IMG/VR virus record: IMGVR_UViG_3300047553_000365
Span: 1-64,000 of that record
Direction: 5' to 3' (one strand)
From: a virus
Length of the DNA: 64,000 nucleotides
Shown here piece after piece: positions 2,757 to 61,458 of the stretch. Made by a program: the position numbers and the translations under genes. Each line of letters starts with the position of its first letter. Position 1 is the first letter of the stretch. Below the pieces are notes generated by a model, which was not told where the DNA came from, made no database searches, and saw only the letters and a program-made list of their open reading frames with translations.

Positions 2757-2828
2757 GCAATGTTCGTCTAACGGCTAAGACAGGAAACTCTAAATCTCTC
2801 AATGCGGGTTCGATTCCCACACATTGCA
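2757..2828 (+). tRNA. tRNA with CTA anticodon (candidate amber reader)
   Basis: Acceptor GCAATGT/ACATTGC is a perfect 7 bp; the D stem is GTCT/AGAC and the T loop TTCGATT. With U33 conserved, the loop CTCTAAA gives anticodon CTA, which reads UAG. The anticodon stem GGAAA/TCTCT has a G-U pair and an A-C mismatch, and the T stem has one C-A mismatch, so the gene may be weak or decayed. CCA is not fully encoded (ACC). Confidence 0.65.
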
Positions 2829-2830
2829 CC

Positions 2831-6687: not shown

Positions 6688-6954
6688 ATGGGTAAAAGAA
6701 ATAGAATAAAGGGTAAATCTTCTTTCAAAACAATTCCAGATCCAGAAGATTCTTGGGCCAAAGTGGAGTTGTATAGGTGGCAACATGGTGAGTTACCTAT
6801 TAATCAAAAACATTCGTTGGATGAAAGTAAAGCATTGATGGCTATGGCAGATGCTATTGAAAAAGGATGTAAGGAAAACGATTCATCAATTATGCCATCA
6901 CCATATAATGTTTGTGCTGTTCTTAGATATATGGCAAAGAAAATCAATAATTAA
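6688..6954 (+). CDS. Hypothetical protein
   Basis: 88 residues with a basic N terminus (MGKRNRIKGKSSFK) and a helical remainder. Not recognised. Last gene before the tRNA-Lys locus. Confidence 0.7.
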   Translation: MGKRNRIKGKSSFKTIPDPEDSWAKVELYRWQHGELPINQKHSLDESKALMAMADAIEKGCKENDSSIMPSPYNVCAVLRYMAKKINN

Positions 6955-7043
6955 AACCGGGGTAAAATCCGTCCTATCGCTTCGAACCTACAGATAACAA
7001 CCATTGACGAATAGTTGAAACCTGAAATTAGCAAGAAGCCCAA

Positions 7044-7119
7044 GGGTGCGTAGCTCAATTGGTAGAGCAACTGGCTTTTAACCAGTAGGTCATGGGATCG
7101 TAGCCCATCGCACCCACCA
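7044..7119 (+). tRNA. tRNA-Lys(TTT)
   Basis: Acceptor GGGTGCG/CGCACCC, anticodon arm ACTGG-CTTTTAA-CCAGT. The T loop is unusual (ATCGTAG). CCA is encoded. Confidence 0.93.
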
Positions 7120-7124
7120 GAATA

Positions 7125-7152
7125 TTGACAAAGACAAAGAAAAGAGTAAATA
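7125..7152 (+). promoter_or_regulatory. Sigma70-type promoter
   Basis: TTGACA at 7125, 16-base spacer, TAAATA at 7147. Sits just upstream of the structured segment and tRNA-Gly. Confidence 0.5.
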
Positions 7153-7157
7153 AGTTT

Positions 7158-7328
7158 GAGAGGACGAGTGCCTCTCACGGGCTGCTACAATACCCGTAAT
7201 TTATATGGCCATATGAAGATTGTAGAAAATTATCAATCAAATAGGTATGGTGGAACTTCGAACTACATTATACCGAATGTGAAATGGTGAGGGCTATGTG
7301 TTAACGAATGACCTCTCTTGGTTGATAA
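7158..7328 (+). ncRNA. Structured noncoding segment with predicted pseudoknot
   Basis: No ORF. GAGAGG (7158) pairs with CCTCTC (7171). ACGGG (7177) pairs with CCCGT (7193), and its loop bases CTACAAT (7185) are complementary to ATTGTAG (7219), forming an H-type pseudoknot. GGTAT (7244) and ATACC (7270) form a hairpin, and TTATCAATCAA (7230) pairs with TTGGTTGATAA (7318) just before tRNA-Gly. The role is unknown; a ribozyme or a tRNA-processing signal is possible. Confidence 0.45.
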
Positions 7329-25215: not shown

Positions 25216-25656
25216 ATGAAACAAGCACTATGTACAAAATGTTTCGGGACGGGGCTTACGATGGGGTGGGTTCCTAGTTATAACAATCCTGATAATTATA
25301 ATTTCGATCCCCCCGCAGAAATATGTTCTTGTGGAGCCTATGAAAAGATGAAAAATAGAGCGCGTATTCAAGACCTAAAAAAAGAATTGGGAGTAGATCA
25401 GTCTAATTGTAAAACCTGCCGACACCTTAAAGGGGAATCTGATGACGAATATGGGTCTAACTTTTATTACTATTGTAGTAAGAGAGAGTCTTTTAGTTGG
25501 TTAAAATCCTTTCCCTTTAAGAAGGATATGGATTGTTGGGAGCCTACCTTTTGGGCAACCAAGCTTGGGGAGGATGTGGATTGGATAGATGGTGCGGGTG
25601 CTAATGAAGCTCACGCTCAGTTTAATGCCATTTTGAATAGGTTTGAGAGAAACTAA
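25216..25656 (+). CDS. Cysteine-rich (zinc-binding) hypothetical protein
   Basis: 146 residues with CTKCFGTG, ICSCGAY and CKTCRHLKG ... YYCSKRES. The first part resembles DnaJ-type or zinc-ribbon fingers. Probably binds two zinc ions. Unknown role. Confidence 0.65.
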   Translation: MKQALCTKCFGTGLTMGWVPSYNNPDNYNFDPPAEICSCGAYEKMKNRARIQDLKKELGVDQSNCKTCRHLKGESDDEYGSNFYYYCSKRESFSWLKSFPFKKDMDCWEPTFWATKLGEDVDWIDGAGANEAHAQFNAILNRFERN

Positions 25657-50957: not shown

Positions 50958-51086
50958 TGGCATGGGTGGGAATCGAACCCACACGCCCTAAACGGGCAAC
51001 GGATTTTGACGATTAATATAATATTGTTTCAACTATATTAATCGGTTTAAAAAGTCCGTAGCGTCTACCAATTCCGCCACCATGCC
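50958..51086 (-). tRNA. tRNA-Leu with a 44-base anticodon-loop insertion
   Basis: Acceptor GGCATGG/CCATGCC, Leu-type D arm (GGCGGAATTGGTAGACGC), class II variable arm GCCCGTTTAGGGC and T arm GTGGG-TTCGATT-CCCAC are all intact. The anticodon stem ACGGA/TCCGT is split by an insertion (about 51009-51052) containing an 11-bp hairpin CGATTAATATA/TATATTAATCG. Removal after U33 gives CAA, removal after U34 gives TAA; both are Leu. No group I core is visible. Confidence 0.8.
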
Positions 51087-58149: not shown

Positions 58150-58194
58150 TGTTATAAAAATGAAAGTGGTGTAGTCTTTCACAACTACACCACT
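58150..58194 (-). terminator. Rho-independent terminator of the RNA array
   Basis: AGTGGTGTAG and CTACACCACT form a perfect 10-bp stem. Reading in the minus direction it is followed by a T-rich stretch (TTTCATTTTTAT). It closes the array transcript. Confidence 0.75.
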
Positions 58195-58230
58195 CGTTTA
58201 GGTATATCAAACAAATCTCTTTTTTATTAT

Positions 58231-58305
58231 AGAATCCCGTTCTACCACTAAACTAACCGCTCCATAAGGAGGGTATTGGAATCGAACCAATGACTGGATT
58301 TTGGA
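58231..58305 (-). ncRNA. Permuted tRNA-like module 3 (Gly TCC-like)
   Basis: In transcript order: TCCAA, AATCC, AGTC, T arm ATTGG-TTCGATT-CCAAT, acceptor strand ACCCTCC, linker TTAT, acceptor strand GGAGCGGT (pairs with one bulged C), D arm GTTT...GAAC, GGATTCT. Joining the ends gives anticodon arm GGATT-CTTCCAA-AATCC, the Gly(UCC) loop also used by tRNA-Gly at 7331. Confidence 0.7.
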
Positions 58306-58357
58306 TTAATAATGTTACTTGCTGTAGAGATTTTATCAGAAATCCATCTTGTTTGCT

Positions 58358-58451
58358 TCCCTGCGTCTACCAGTTTCGCCATCCCCAACGTTTATTTATA
58401 TAAGTGTGGGGAGTAGGACTTGAACCTACAGGTGATCTATTGATCGCGGGA
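58358..58451 (-). ncRNA. Permuted tRNA-like module 2 (Leu-like D arm, long variable arm)
   Basis: TCCC, variable hairpin GATC/GATC, T arm GTAGG-TTCAAGT-CCTAC, acceptor strand TCCCCAC, 17-base linker, acceptor strand TTGGGGA (6 of 7 pairs), Leu-type D arm TGGCGAAACTGGTAGACGC, then GGGA, which pairs with TCCC. The anticodon loop cannot be rebuilt with confidence. Confidence 0.6.
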
Positions 58452-58510
58452 CTTTACATTGCTATTATTTGCTGTTGAATTTCTTATCAGAACTTGTTTT
58501 TTTCTTTTTT

Positions 58511-58580
58511 CATGCTGCCACTACACCATACGCTCCGCTAGGAACGTAGCAGGATTCGAACCTGCGCCTCTTGTTTACAT
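58511..58580 (-). ncRNA. Permuted tRNA-like module 1
   Basis: T arm GCAGG-TTCGAAT-CCTGC, acceptor strand TACGTTCC, linker TAGC, acceptor strand GGAGCGTA (8 pairs including one G-U), D-arm-like GGTGTAGTGGCAGC. No good anticodon stem was found, so this copy may be purely tRNA-mimicking. Confidence 0.65.
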
Positions 58581-58894
58581 ACAATTAGATAATATTTGCA
58601 GTTCAAGTTCTTATCAGATTACATTTTACTTGGTTTCATTTATCAATTGAATAGTATATATTTGCTGTATTGTAATCTTATCAAGTCTCGTTTTTTCCTA
58701 TTTTGCTAATTGGTTTTTTATATTTGCTGGTTGAGACTTTATCAGAATAGTTTTGTTTCCTTTCTTAAATGTAGAATATATTTGCTGGACTATTCTTATA
58801 GAATAAAGGATTCAATACTTGGGATTACCATCATTTCGCAGCAAGCTTAACTGTATCAGGGTTCCTTTTCAAGCCTTTATTCATGGCGTAATAC

Positions 58895-58923
58895 TATTTA
58901 TCACAATAGCATTACGGTGTCAA
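58895..58923 (-). promoter_or_regulatory. Sigma70-type promoter of the RNA array
   Basis: Minus-strand TTGACA (58918-58923), 17-base spacer, TAAATA (58895-58900). Transcription would begin near 58888, just before the first stem of the array. Confidence 0.65.
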
Positions 58924-58967
58924 GTAGTTAGTGTTATGAGCAGTAAACTACTGACAAGGTGCTTAGG

Positions 58968-60620
58968 TTAAACTTCGACCATGTTTAGAATCTCTTGGTC
59001 AAGAGCTTCTTCCATGAGTTCGTAAGTGGTCTTAATCTTGCCGCTAAGGAAAGAGATAACGGATGCAGAGTATCCACCGAAGTAATACACATTAAGCGCA
59101 TTCTTACCAGTTTCAAACTTCTCACCAGTTCCCTTACCATAGTAGTTACTTTGGAGATTCCAAAGAACGATTACAAATTCATCAACATATTCCTTAGAGA
59201 ATCCTGCATTTCTAAGAGTAGTGCGAGCAGCATCCACATTAGTCTTATTCAAACTAGCAGGATTAAACTCACTATCACTAATGCACAGAATTCCACGGGG
59301 GAAATCAGATTCGGGAGTTCCTTGTTTCTTCATCTTGCAGAACAAGTTAATAACACTTTGGAAGTTGGTTGAACCAACAAATCCTGACTTATCATTCTTC
59401 CACTTGGAAGTAGGAGAATGACCATTCCACTTGTGAAGCTTTGCATCAGAATTGAATTCAATCCAATGTCCTGCGAAAGTTCCAGTAAGGAATTCACTAA
59501 AGTAAAGAGCAAGAGCCTTACCAATATCATAGCAAGTAGACTTAGTTCCAGTAGCAATGCTACCCATAGAACCAGAAGTGTCACGCACCACGATTAGGTT
59601 GGTATAGTTTTCACCTGCCTTAGCCTTATCAACAAGAGTTTGAAACTGCTTATCAATAGTAAGTTCCTTGTTAGAATCCCCTTGCCAATGACCTTCAAAG
59701 AGTTCATGGACAAATCCAGTATACTTAACAGCAGTAGTCTCAGGCTTCTTAATCCATTCAGAATACTTCTCACTAAGACCTTGATTCTTAAGGAACTTGC
59801 TCTTAACAAGAATCGACAATGCACGACCATGAATCTTACTAAAGTCGATATCCTTAAACTTACCTTGTGAGATAAGCTTTTGCCAATCGTGTGCAGATCC
59901 ACTAGTCTTAAGCTTACGATACTTCTTGTAGTTAGCAGGAGAAGTCTTGCTTCCAAACAGTAGATAACAAATCCACTTAGCAATTTGATTATTAGACTGT
60001 GCATCCACAGTAGTAGCTTGAGACTTAGCCTTGATTTGTGGAAGATACTTCTTCACAAGATCGCAGGTCTTATCATTATTAAGTGCAGCCAGAATCAGTT
60101 CACCAAACTTATCCCAATCCAATTGACGGTTTTCCCATCCATTGTAACTAAGATCATATTGCAGCATGGTAAACACATCATGCCATGAACCCACAGAAAC
60201 AAACAGCAGAATGTTATTCCAGAAAGAATCAGGAGAAACAGTGTGCAGCCAAATCATACGCATGATAGCTTCATGCTTAAGTTCAGTTCCAAGTTGAGGA
60301 TTCTTAGTCTTACTACCATCAGGCAGACTAACAATACGAGGAATGGTTCTAAGGAACAAAGTAAACTTTACTGCCTTAAGAGGATCTTCACCCCAAAGAG
60401 TAGATGCATCAGCAGCAATCTCAGAAAACTTGCGGGGAGTCTTGTAATTACCAGCCTTAGTAAATTGATCGACTAGCGTAGAGCCTGAAGATTTAAACTT
60501 CAATGCTCCATTACCAGAACGAGTCTTATTCGATTCTGCATTGGCATTAGCAAGAAACTCATTAACTTTTTTACGAGTCACTTTACGCACGGTTTCGGCT
60601 TGTCTTTTATTCTCAAACAT
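58968..60620 (-). CDS. Ro60/TROVE-DUF2828-like protein with vWA domain
   Basis: 550 residues. A helical-repeat N-terminal two thirds (AVKFTLFLRTIPRI, LLFVSVGSWHDVFTML) is followed by a von Willebrand A domain with an intact MIDAS motif, VVRDTSGSMGS, and LCISDSEFNP later. This layout is shared by DUF2828 proteins and the TROVE ring protein Ro60, which binds Y RNAs and defective RNAs. The tRNA-like RNA array follows it and a Thg1-like gene precedes it. Which of the two families is closer needs a profile search. Confidence 0.75.
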   Translation of the reverse strand: MFENKRQAETVRKVTRKKVNEFLANANAESNKTRSGNGALKFKSSGSTLVDQFTKAGNYKTPRKFSEIAADASTLWGEDPLKAVKFTLFLRTIPRIVSLPDGSKTKNPQLGTELKHEAIMRMIWLHTVSPDSFWNNILLFVSVGSWHDVFTMLQYDLSYNGWENRQLDWDKFGELILAALNNDKTCDLVKKYLPQIKAKSQATTVDAQSNNQIAKWICYLLFGSKTSPANYKKYRKLKTSGSAHDWQKLISQGKFKDIDFSKIHGRALSILVKSKFLKNQGLSEKYSEWIKKPETTAVKYTGFVHELFEGHWQGDSNKELTIDKQFQTLVDKAKAGENYTNLIVVRDTSGSMGSIATGTKSTCYDIGKALALYFSEFLTGTFAGHWIEFNSDAKLHKWNGHSPTSKWKNDKSGFVGSTNFQSVINLFCKMKKQGTPESDFPRGILCISDSEFNPASLNKTNVDAARTTLRNAGFSKEYVDEFVIVLWNLQSNYYGKGTGEKFETGKNALNVYYFGGYSASVISFLSGKIKTTYELMEEALDQEILNMVEV

Positions 60621-60717: not shown

Positions 60718-61458
60718 CTAATATAACCATAAATCTTCCTCACTTGTAATAGCACCAAACAAGAAATCATTAATAGAAAGGTAATCAGTTAGGTTATAAT
60801 TATCACCTTTAGTTGGCGACCACCATGACCCATTTCTTTGTTGGTCAGAGCATTCATCCTCCCAACTGTGTCCAATCTTTTTAAGCATTTCTTTTTGATC
60901 TGCTCTACCTTGTCCATGTAATTCTTTAGGAGAAAAATGAGACAGGCAAAACATAGAGATACTATTTCTTTCCCAATCCTTAACTCTCCATAGAAAGACA
61001 TTGGCAACATCTTCTTTCGGACATTGAAATGCTCTAGCATCAAACACAGCAGGATTATATGATCCGATATTAAATCTACCATTATCCCAATTCAAACATG
61101 TCCAAGTTTTATTGAAGTAGGCAGTCATTAGTGCAGCAGTAACAGATTCAATCTTATTCTGTCTACCACCGAACCATTGTTGAGTTTCAATACTACCACT
61201 ATCATCCAACACAAAAGTTACTTCATCACTTTGAACATACAATCCTTTACAGTTTTGCATTTCCTTAGCAACATACTTAGCAGAAATAAACATAGCATTG
61301 ATTAACTTCGTATCAAAAGGTTTATCGCAACCTTTAGTCCAAGTATGAAATGCCTTACCATCTACTCTAACAAGGATAGGAACCTTGGGAGTAAAGTAAT
61401 GTTCACTGATAGATTCGTAGTGTTTGATTCTATCACCTAATGTATCTTTGCTATTCAT
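60718..61458 (-). CDS. Thg1-like 3'-5' RNA polymerase (TLP)
   Basis: 246 residues. VPILVRVDGKAFHTWTKG and LYVQSDEVTFVLDD carry the two metal-binding carboxylate motifs (RxDGxxFHxFxK and YxQSDExxFV) of Thg1 family enzymes. Thg1 adds G-1 to tRNA-His; Thg1-like proteins repair 5'-truncated tRNAs by templated 3'-5' addition. The phage tRNA-His lacks encoded G-1, and a tRNA-like RNA lies just upstream of this gene. Ends in TAG followed two codons later by TAA. Confidence 0.88.
   Translation of the reverse strand: MNSKDTLGDRIKHYESISEHYFTPKVPILVRVDGKAFHTWTKGCDKPFDTKLINAMFISAKYVAKEMQNCKGLYVQSDEVTFVLDDSGSIETQQWFGGRQNKIESVTAALMTAYFNKTWTCLNWDNGRFNIGSYNPAVFDARAFQCPKEDVANVFLWRVKDWERNSISMFCLSHFSPKELHGQGRADQKEMLKKIGHSWEDECSDQQRNGSWWSPTKGDNYNLTDYLSINDFLFGAITSEEDLWLY

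Follow-up and report, generated by a model that had tools for sequence, protein, structure and literature searches.

Phage Y RNAs near Ro genes and their tRNA mimicry are known already, and Y RNAs near Ro are reportedly described in both bacteria and phages by Chen et al. 2014 (cited in PMC12282133 and PMC7790460). The YrlA type (Rfam RF02553; Salmonella rsr-yrlBA-rtcBA) adjoins a Ro60 ortholog, has its ends paired in a helix and carries a permuted tRNA-like domain whose acceptor is capped by a short loop. According to the account given in PMC7790460, a Y RNA of D. radiodurans tethers Rsr to PNPase (Chen 2013). For the Listeria phage cka15, putative Y RNAs have been suggested, purified particles contained an Rsr-like protein, and three regions without annotation, less than 2 kb upstream of the Rsr-like gene, showed some of the highest transcription in the genome (PMC12282133). 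Here we describe a tandem array of seven RNA units directly after a Ro60-like gene in viral DNA, the window analysed being 64,000 nt (positions 1 to 64,000) of the IMG/VR record IMGVR_UViG_3300047553_000365 (full virus record, 138,655 bases). We consider it probable, at about 85%, that the array units are Ro-associated phage Y RNAs, encoded as a polycistronic set, because of the Ro60 fold of the neighbouring protein, the covarying helix with ACAGCAA, the linkage to Ro across phages and the similarity to YrlA.

The array adjoins the Ro gene on its 3' side and runs on the minus strand from 58882 to 58211 through seven helical units (U0–U6), followed by a terminator. A first-pass annotation of this DNA had proposed a seven-stem RNA array after a Ro60-like gene, and the seven units are indeed present in the sequence, with all six junctions exactly 4 nt long: TATA between U0 and U1, and GATA from U1 through U6. 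The TGATAA that it had placed between the stems thus consists of the last letter of the closing strand, GATA and the first A of the next unit, and the U0–U1 junction departs from it. The units are also sequential and not intertwined, so that the description of the array as 'interlocked' was wrong. Six units (U1–U6) share a signature made up of a 7–9 bp helix, ACAGCAA 3' of the 5' strand, a CU closing the helix and the GAUA linker. The constant element ACAGCAAATAT, already noticed after nearly every opening strand, occurs as CAGCAA/CTGCAA variants in U1–U6 and is missing from U0. The latter (58801–58882, minus strand, as for all units) was recognized by its 9 bp stem, GAATAAAGG/CCTTTATTC, and its 4-nt junction; it has no ACAGCAA, and inspection by eye noticed no counterpart in the relatives.

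Two kinds of unit follow U0. U1 (AGAATAGT/ACTATTCT; 58744–58796), U2 (AAGTCTC/GAGACTT; 58683–58739) and U3 (AGATTACA/TGTAATCT; 58616–58678) are loop-only, with A-rich loops of ~40 nt; they scored 50.3, 55.4 and 49 bits respectively with R1, a covariance model of loop-only units, all three belonging to the 51 units of its training set. U4–U6 carry tRNA-like modules in permuted order (3' half, short linker, 5' half). U4 (AGAACTTG/CAAGTTCT; 58489–58611) has an 8 bp acceptor helix capped by TAGC, U5 (AGAAATTCA/TGGATTTCT; 58338–58484) is Leu-like with a long variable arm and a capped and bulged acceptor helix, and the acceptor helix of U6 (AAATCTCT/AGAGATTT; 58213–58333) is bulged and capped by TTAT. 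Upon circular rotation all three were called as tRNA by ARAGORN, compared with none of the three unrotated, in line with the permuted, capped modules of the first-pass annotation. The fold energy of the array region had a z of -4.8 relative to shuffles. A derivation of U4–U6 from the phage's own tRNAs was considered separately, and the comparison gave no support for it.

Pairing and covariation of the stems were measured across units and phages. Across 42 loci with homologous Ro, the 1.2 kb following the gene contained 186 sense and 26 antisense C[AT]GCAA sites, and 81% of the sense sites had an adjacent stem scoring at least 16, compared with 10% when the opening strands were swapped between sites. 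Selection of units on constant letters alone (GATA, C[AT]GCAA, GATA) yielded 26 units, in which 95% of the cells were paired and 22 units were fully complementary; 1000 shuffles gave 60% with a maximum of 70%, and sliding the partner strand left 29–44% paired. The covariation score of the stems was 0.889 compared with 0.240 for shuffled stems, a value reached in 0 of 500 shuffles (a second alignment, picked by complementarity, is illustrative only). The stems, read at first as varying from unit to unit while staying complementary, therefore show strong compensatory change among relatives, which was the check proposed for them. By this covariation, the 5' and 3' ends of each unit are paired in a helix, as in Y RNAs.

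Arrays were found beside Ro in most of the 42 related viral loci, and 177 units were counted in 37 loci, although counts across viral contigs have to be read with the overlapping origin of IMG/VR contigs in mind. Short units without a T-loop core made up 89 of the 177; the other 88 were long, with a T-loop core in 67. The gap between units was exactly 4 nt at 71 of the 140 junctions in these 37 loci, and the helices began mostly with AG at the 5' end and finished mostly with CU at the 3' end. ARAGORN called 22 of the 88 long units as tRNA after rotation, none without rotation and none of 264 shuffled sequences. An acceptor helix with 6 or more of 7 bp formed came immediately after the T arm in 32 modules, most of them capped by 2–26 nt and two by 68 and 84 nt; the T arm alone, the T arm plus a GAGGCACTTGGTGTGGAAT-like element and larger folds also recurred. 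Several further forms were seen in the comparison loci (L-numbers). A module with a GAGGCACTTGGTGTGGAATATCGG-like element after the T arm recurs in L148, L149, L150, L159, L162, L170, L177, L178 and L187. Ordinary-order (unpermuted) tRNAs lie inside Y-type units at L172:2961-3033 and L170:6220-6293, with a similar case near 953 in the Bacillus phage L127. A large conserved structured insert (GGCGATGGTAGATAG...GGGACGAACGAT) is present within array units of L001 (7700-7870) and L145 (6548-6707), with no Rfam match at the thresholds used, and in L169 a tmRNA gene (6791-7193; 52.8 bits) lies 3' of the array.

The R1 model, as the first-pass annotation had anticipated for a covariance model built from the units, found units next to Ro genes in phage records. 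In 21 cultured-phage or plasmid loci it gave 28 matches, all on the Ro strand, a few of which are training sequences (L124, L125 and L131), and in whole records of Ro-bearing cultured phages units were detected at E <= 0.01 in 14 of 16. Among 78 contigs picked by DNA pattern alone, R1 matched in nine, and Ro was encoded in the same nine and no others (p about 5e-12); some of the 78 had given units to R1, and their choice here did not use Ro. An initial pattern for viral contigs, CTGATAAN{4,14}CAGCAAATA, was not specific enough, and the 119 contigs that it returned were used as controls. The two with strong R1 matches, L035 and L105, both encode Ro, and one weak match (E 0.06) was seen in L110, without Ro in its record. 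Being encoded next to a Ro60 ortholog, a defining property of Y RNAs, thus holds for these units. Scans of genome contigs for the Ro protein and a YrlA-derived DNA pattern gave no matches, so the survey covers viral and plasmid sequences, with one Rhizobium plasmid locus (L192) as the bacterial comparison.

The Ro60-like gene (58968–60620, minus strand) encodes 550 amino acids. The first-pass annotation had called it TROVE/DUF2828-type, and its assignment to Ro60 was supported by fold while the family names were not: the only Pfam domain in the protein is the C-terminal DUF7788 of vWA (von Willebrand factor A) type (E 1.7e-10), DUF2828 was not detected by Pfam, and TROVE (PF05731) was found neither by hmmscan nor by a search of the phage's own genome. 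Phage relatives of the protein match both DUF2828 and DUF7788, DUF2828 being added in the more distant homologs. A search of the PDB by sequence with the Ro profile returned chance matches alone, and a fold search was therefore needed. The AlphaFold2 model (pLDDT 87.5) was compared with the PDB using Foldseek, and Ro60 structures took the first four places, each aligned along the entire length (E 1e-5 to 7e-5, probability 1.00, TM 0.39-0.50), with nothing besides Ro60 below E 1e-3. The model has the HEAT-like ring plus vWA domain of the Ro60 fold, and a metal site of the MIDAS (metal-ion-dependent adhesion site) type, D346-x-S348-x-S350, T417 and D448, is invariant among 23 homologs. Given the Foldseek matches, the invariant metal site and the undetected TROVE domain, the window protein is, on the predicted structure, Ro60-like by fold and linked RNA and no TROVE member by sequence.

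The likeness to YrlA that had been suggested for the array was found at scores under the Rfam gathering cut-off of 69 bits. U6 matched RF02553 end to end (28.5 bits, E 6e-4, over 58205-58325), and the best match, at L003:7016-7122 (46.4 bits, E 3e-9), aligned the model over its full length; units of L004, L159, L170, L174 and L176 were matched as well, again with full-length alignment in L159. U4–U6 share with YrlA the permuted tRNA-like domain with a capped acceptor, and all units share its helix-paired ends beside a Ro60 ortholog. The phage arrays, however, combine a helix of free sequence with ACAGCAA where YrlA has GGCGAAUGC...UUGUCGCC, and each comprises six to ten units joined by 4-nt linkers, many of the units having no tRNA-like part. 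The first-pass annotation took the multi-unit array for a new kind, and this holds in part. The Rhizobium plasmid pRetIE4771c (L192) has five tandem Y RNAs after the Ro gene of an RtcR-TROVE-RtcB locus, at least three of them with T-arm or tRNA-like modules as in the phage arrays, and multi-unit Y RNA loci are thus not unique to phages. In contrast, its Ro is of TROVE type and its signature is GGCGAAUGC/UUGUCGCC, and the ACAGCAA/GAUA array form is, as judged from the sequences, distinct from the Rhizobium form. Mycobacteriophages Tourach and Bromden, like the window, have units after Ro, three in number with the middle one long and tRNA-like, and Listeria phages cka15/P200 have three units before Ro; compared with the window, these sets have fewer units, looser spacing and no regular GAUA linker. 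In cka15, the interval upstream of the Rsr-like gene also holds three units (25289-25553). The tight many-unit array, its signature and the variety of its modules look like a novel variant.

A second resemblance concerns the Class I RNAs of social amoebas (Rfam RF01414, Dicty_Class_I_RNA; gathering cut-off 41.5 bits). These are RNAs of ~60 nt that finish with CUG at the 3' end and have a short terminal stem without fixed sequence; next to its 5' strand lies a conserved 11-nt motif (PMC7919456), which ends in ACAGCAA in the Rfam consensus. The same terminal stem and motif are found in the phage units. On loop-only units, the Class I model scored at best 39.3 bits (E 5e-4; L124), followed by 37.3 bits in L174 and 32.7 bits for U3 of the window (E 3e-4), so that no phage unit reached the gathering score, and nearly all of its matches in these loci lay on units. 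Unlike the phage units, Class I RNAs come from eukaryotic single genes with a DUSE promoter element and have the RRM (RNA recognition motif) protein Cibp as known binder; PMC7919456 does not mention a Ro link. The resemblance may reflect common ancestry, a binding protein in common or convergence. That the helix with ACAGCAA is a general docking code of the Ro family, that phages string varied RNA mimics on one transcript, and that Class I RNAs are eukaryotic Y RNAs with a missed main partner of Ro/DUF2828 type is an idea we regard as doubtful.

The array had also been described as a promoter-to-terminator unit. Its 3' end agrees with this, as a strong intrinsic terminator with a 13 bp stem and a T-rich tail follows the array (58164–58195, minus strand). 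For the promoter the evidence is solely comparative: TTGACA-N17-TAAATA lies after the Ro stop codon and ahead of the array (58895–58923, minus strand), and identical hexamers at identical spacing stand in front of the arrays of L001, L002 and L145; a generic consensus promoter scan of the window did not list this element. A palindrome, CGTAATGCTATT...AATAGTATTACG, can be read over the -10 element (58887–58916, minus strand), and L001 and L002 have palindromes at the same place with differing letters. A gene for a Thg1-like tRNA-His guanylyltransferase (60718–61458, minus strand; Pfam Thg1, E 9e-28) lies 5' of Ro, as also in L001 and L145, and may be no more than a neighbour of the array. The phage has a set of 26 tRNA-type genes, including one with a CTA anticodon, a possible amber suppressor (2757-2830, plus strand; called tRNA-Pyl). 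A tRNA-Leu(UAA)-like gene at 50958-51086 (minus strand) has its anticodon loop interrupted by an inserted hairpin of ~43 nt, which is shorter than a group I intron would be. An RNA ligase domain (PF09414) is encoded at 87142-87741 (minus strand) of the whole phage record, in which RtcB was looked for and not found.

The Ro60 fold, the covarying helix with ACAGCAA and GAUA linkers, the capped permuted tRNA-like modules and the association with Ro were all established computationally. On the Y RNA reading, the helix and ACAGCAA of each unit would be the docking site for the phage Ro, and a single transcript, either whole or cut at the GAUA linkers, would give several Ro ribonucleoproteins. The short units with A-rich loops may serve as plain Y RNAs, gating or bridging Ro. 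The tRNA-like modules may be recognized by tRNA-binding enzymes and so bring these, or an exoribonuclease (PNPase, for instance), to Ro, where structured RNA would be degraded or checked for quality in the infected cell. We hold such recruitment tentatively, at slightly less than even odds. Several points weigh against the Y RNA reading and the role drawn from it. The adaptor role is modelled on a single bacterial species, and the phage YrlA scores (28-46 bits) all lie under the cut-off. Rhizobium L192, the one bacterial TROVE locus examined, has neither ACAGCAA nor an R1 match. In Erwinia and Xanthomonas phages the units are far from Ro, and Citrobacter and Aeromonas phages also have them away from it; the annotation of the Erwinia and Citrobacter phages places them among tRNA genes. 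Nor was the idea supported that the most transcribed unannotated region of cka15 is the array: that region, the sole one with printed coordinates (OR088597.1, 26236-26727), contains no units, lies ~0.7 kb further upstream and represents an RNA other than the units.

The units away from Ro would suit a phage family of structured RNAs that serves a purpose unrelated to Ro, such as regulation or packaging, and merely travels with it. We consider this improbable, as units and Ro occurred together almost without exception in contigs selected independently of Ro and the YrlA similarity is independent evidence. Chance hairpins or decayed remains of tRNA genes would be conceivable in an A+T-rich region of a tRNA-rich phage; this is contradicted by the covariation of the stems, by the swap, shuffle and strand controls and by conservation over distant phages, and its likelihood is negligible. 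It is very unlikely, too, that U4–U6 are permuted tRNA genes of the kind known from certain algae and archaea, from which splicing at the helix and cleavage at the acceptor would yield functional tRNAs. The order of the halves is identical, rotated units are called as tRNA and a Thg1-like gene is nearby, but the short units, which have the same helix, contain no tRNA, inspection found no consistent anticodon or intron border of the bulge-helix-bulge type, and the acceptor helices of U5 and U6 are bulged. Furthermore, the nominal ARAGORN anticodons of U4–U6 (gaa, gta and tcc) are already served by ordinary tRNA genes in the window, and YrlA RNAs, with the same architecture, are known not to be tRNA genes.

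The main rival concerns what the modules do and leaves the Y RNA array in place: the modules would be decoys that sequester or inhibit host nucleases directed at tRNA, along with other defence enzymes acting on tRNA, while Ro would provide a stabilizing platform. Module types vary within and between arrays, as an arms race would predict, and the modules have no anticodon loop or free acceptor end; the phage also has the 26 tRNA-type genes, Thg1 and RNA ligase, and a competitive-inhibitor role has been proposed for the YrlA tRNA-like domain (PMC7790460). Decoying does not, however, explain the 89 of 177 units that are short and without a tRNA-like part, and any target nuclease would be hypothetical. 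We regard the decoy function as a serious alternative that is nevertheless clearly less probable than recruitment to Ro.

Because their helices have no fixed sequence, phage Y RNAs are otherwise hard to find, and the signature and covariance model can now be used to find them. Units are present in well-studied phages, namely P100/A511-type Listeria phages, a Felixounavirus and mycobacteriophages, and Ro binding and function are therefore directly testable in laboratory phages. The natural tRNA mimics are a large set that includes complete modules, modules with a T arm only and tRNAs of ordinary order within units; they form a resource on the tRNA-acting enzymes engaged during infection, and the overlap with Class I RNAs suggests a candidate partner for a Dictyostelium RNA class whose function is under study. 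Taken together, since the same chain occurs in many unrelated phages, the arrays are a strong candidate, and one open to experiment, for a viral form of the Ro/Y RNA machinery with a wide distribution.
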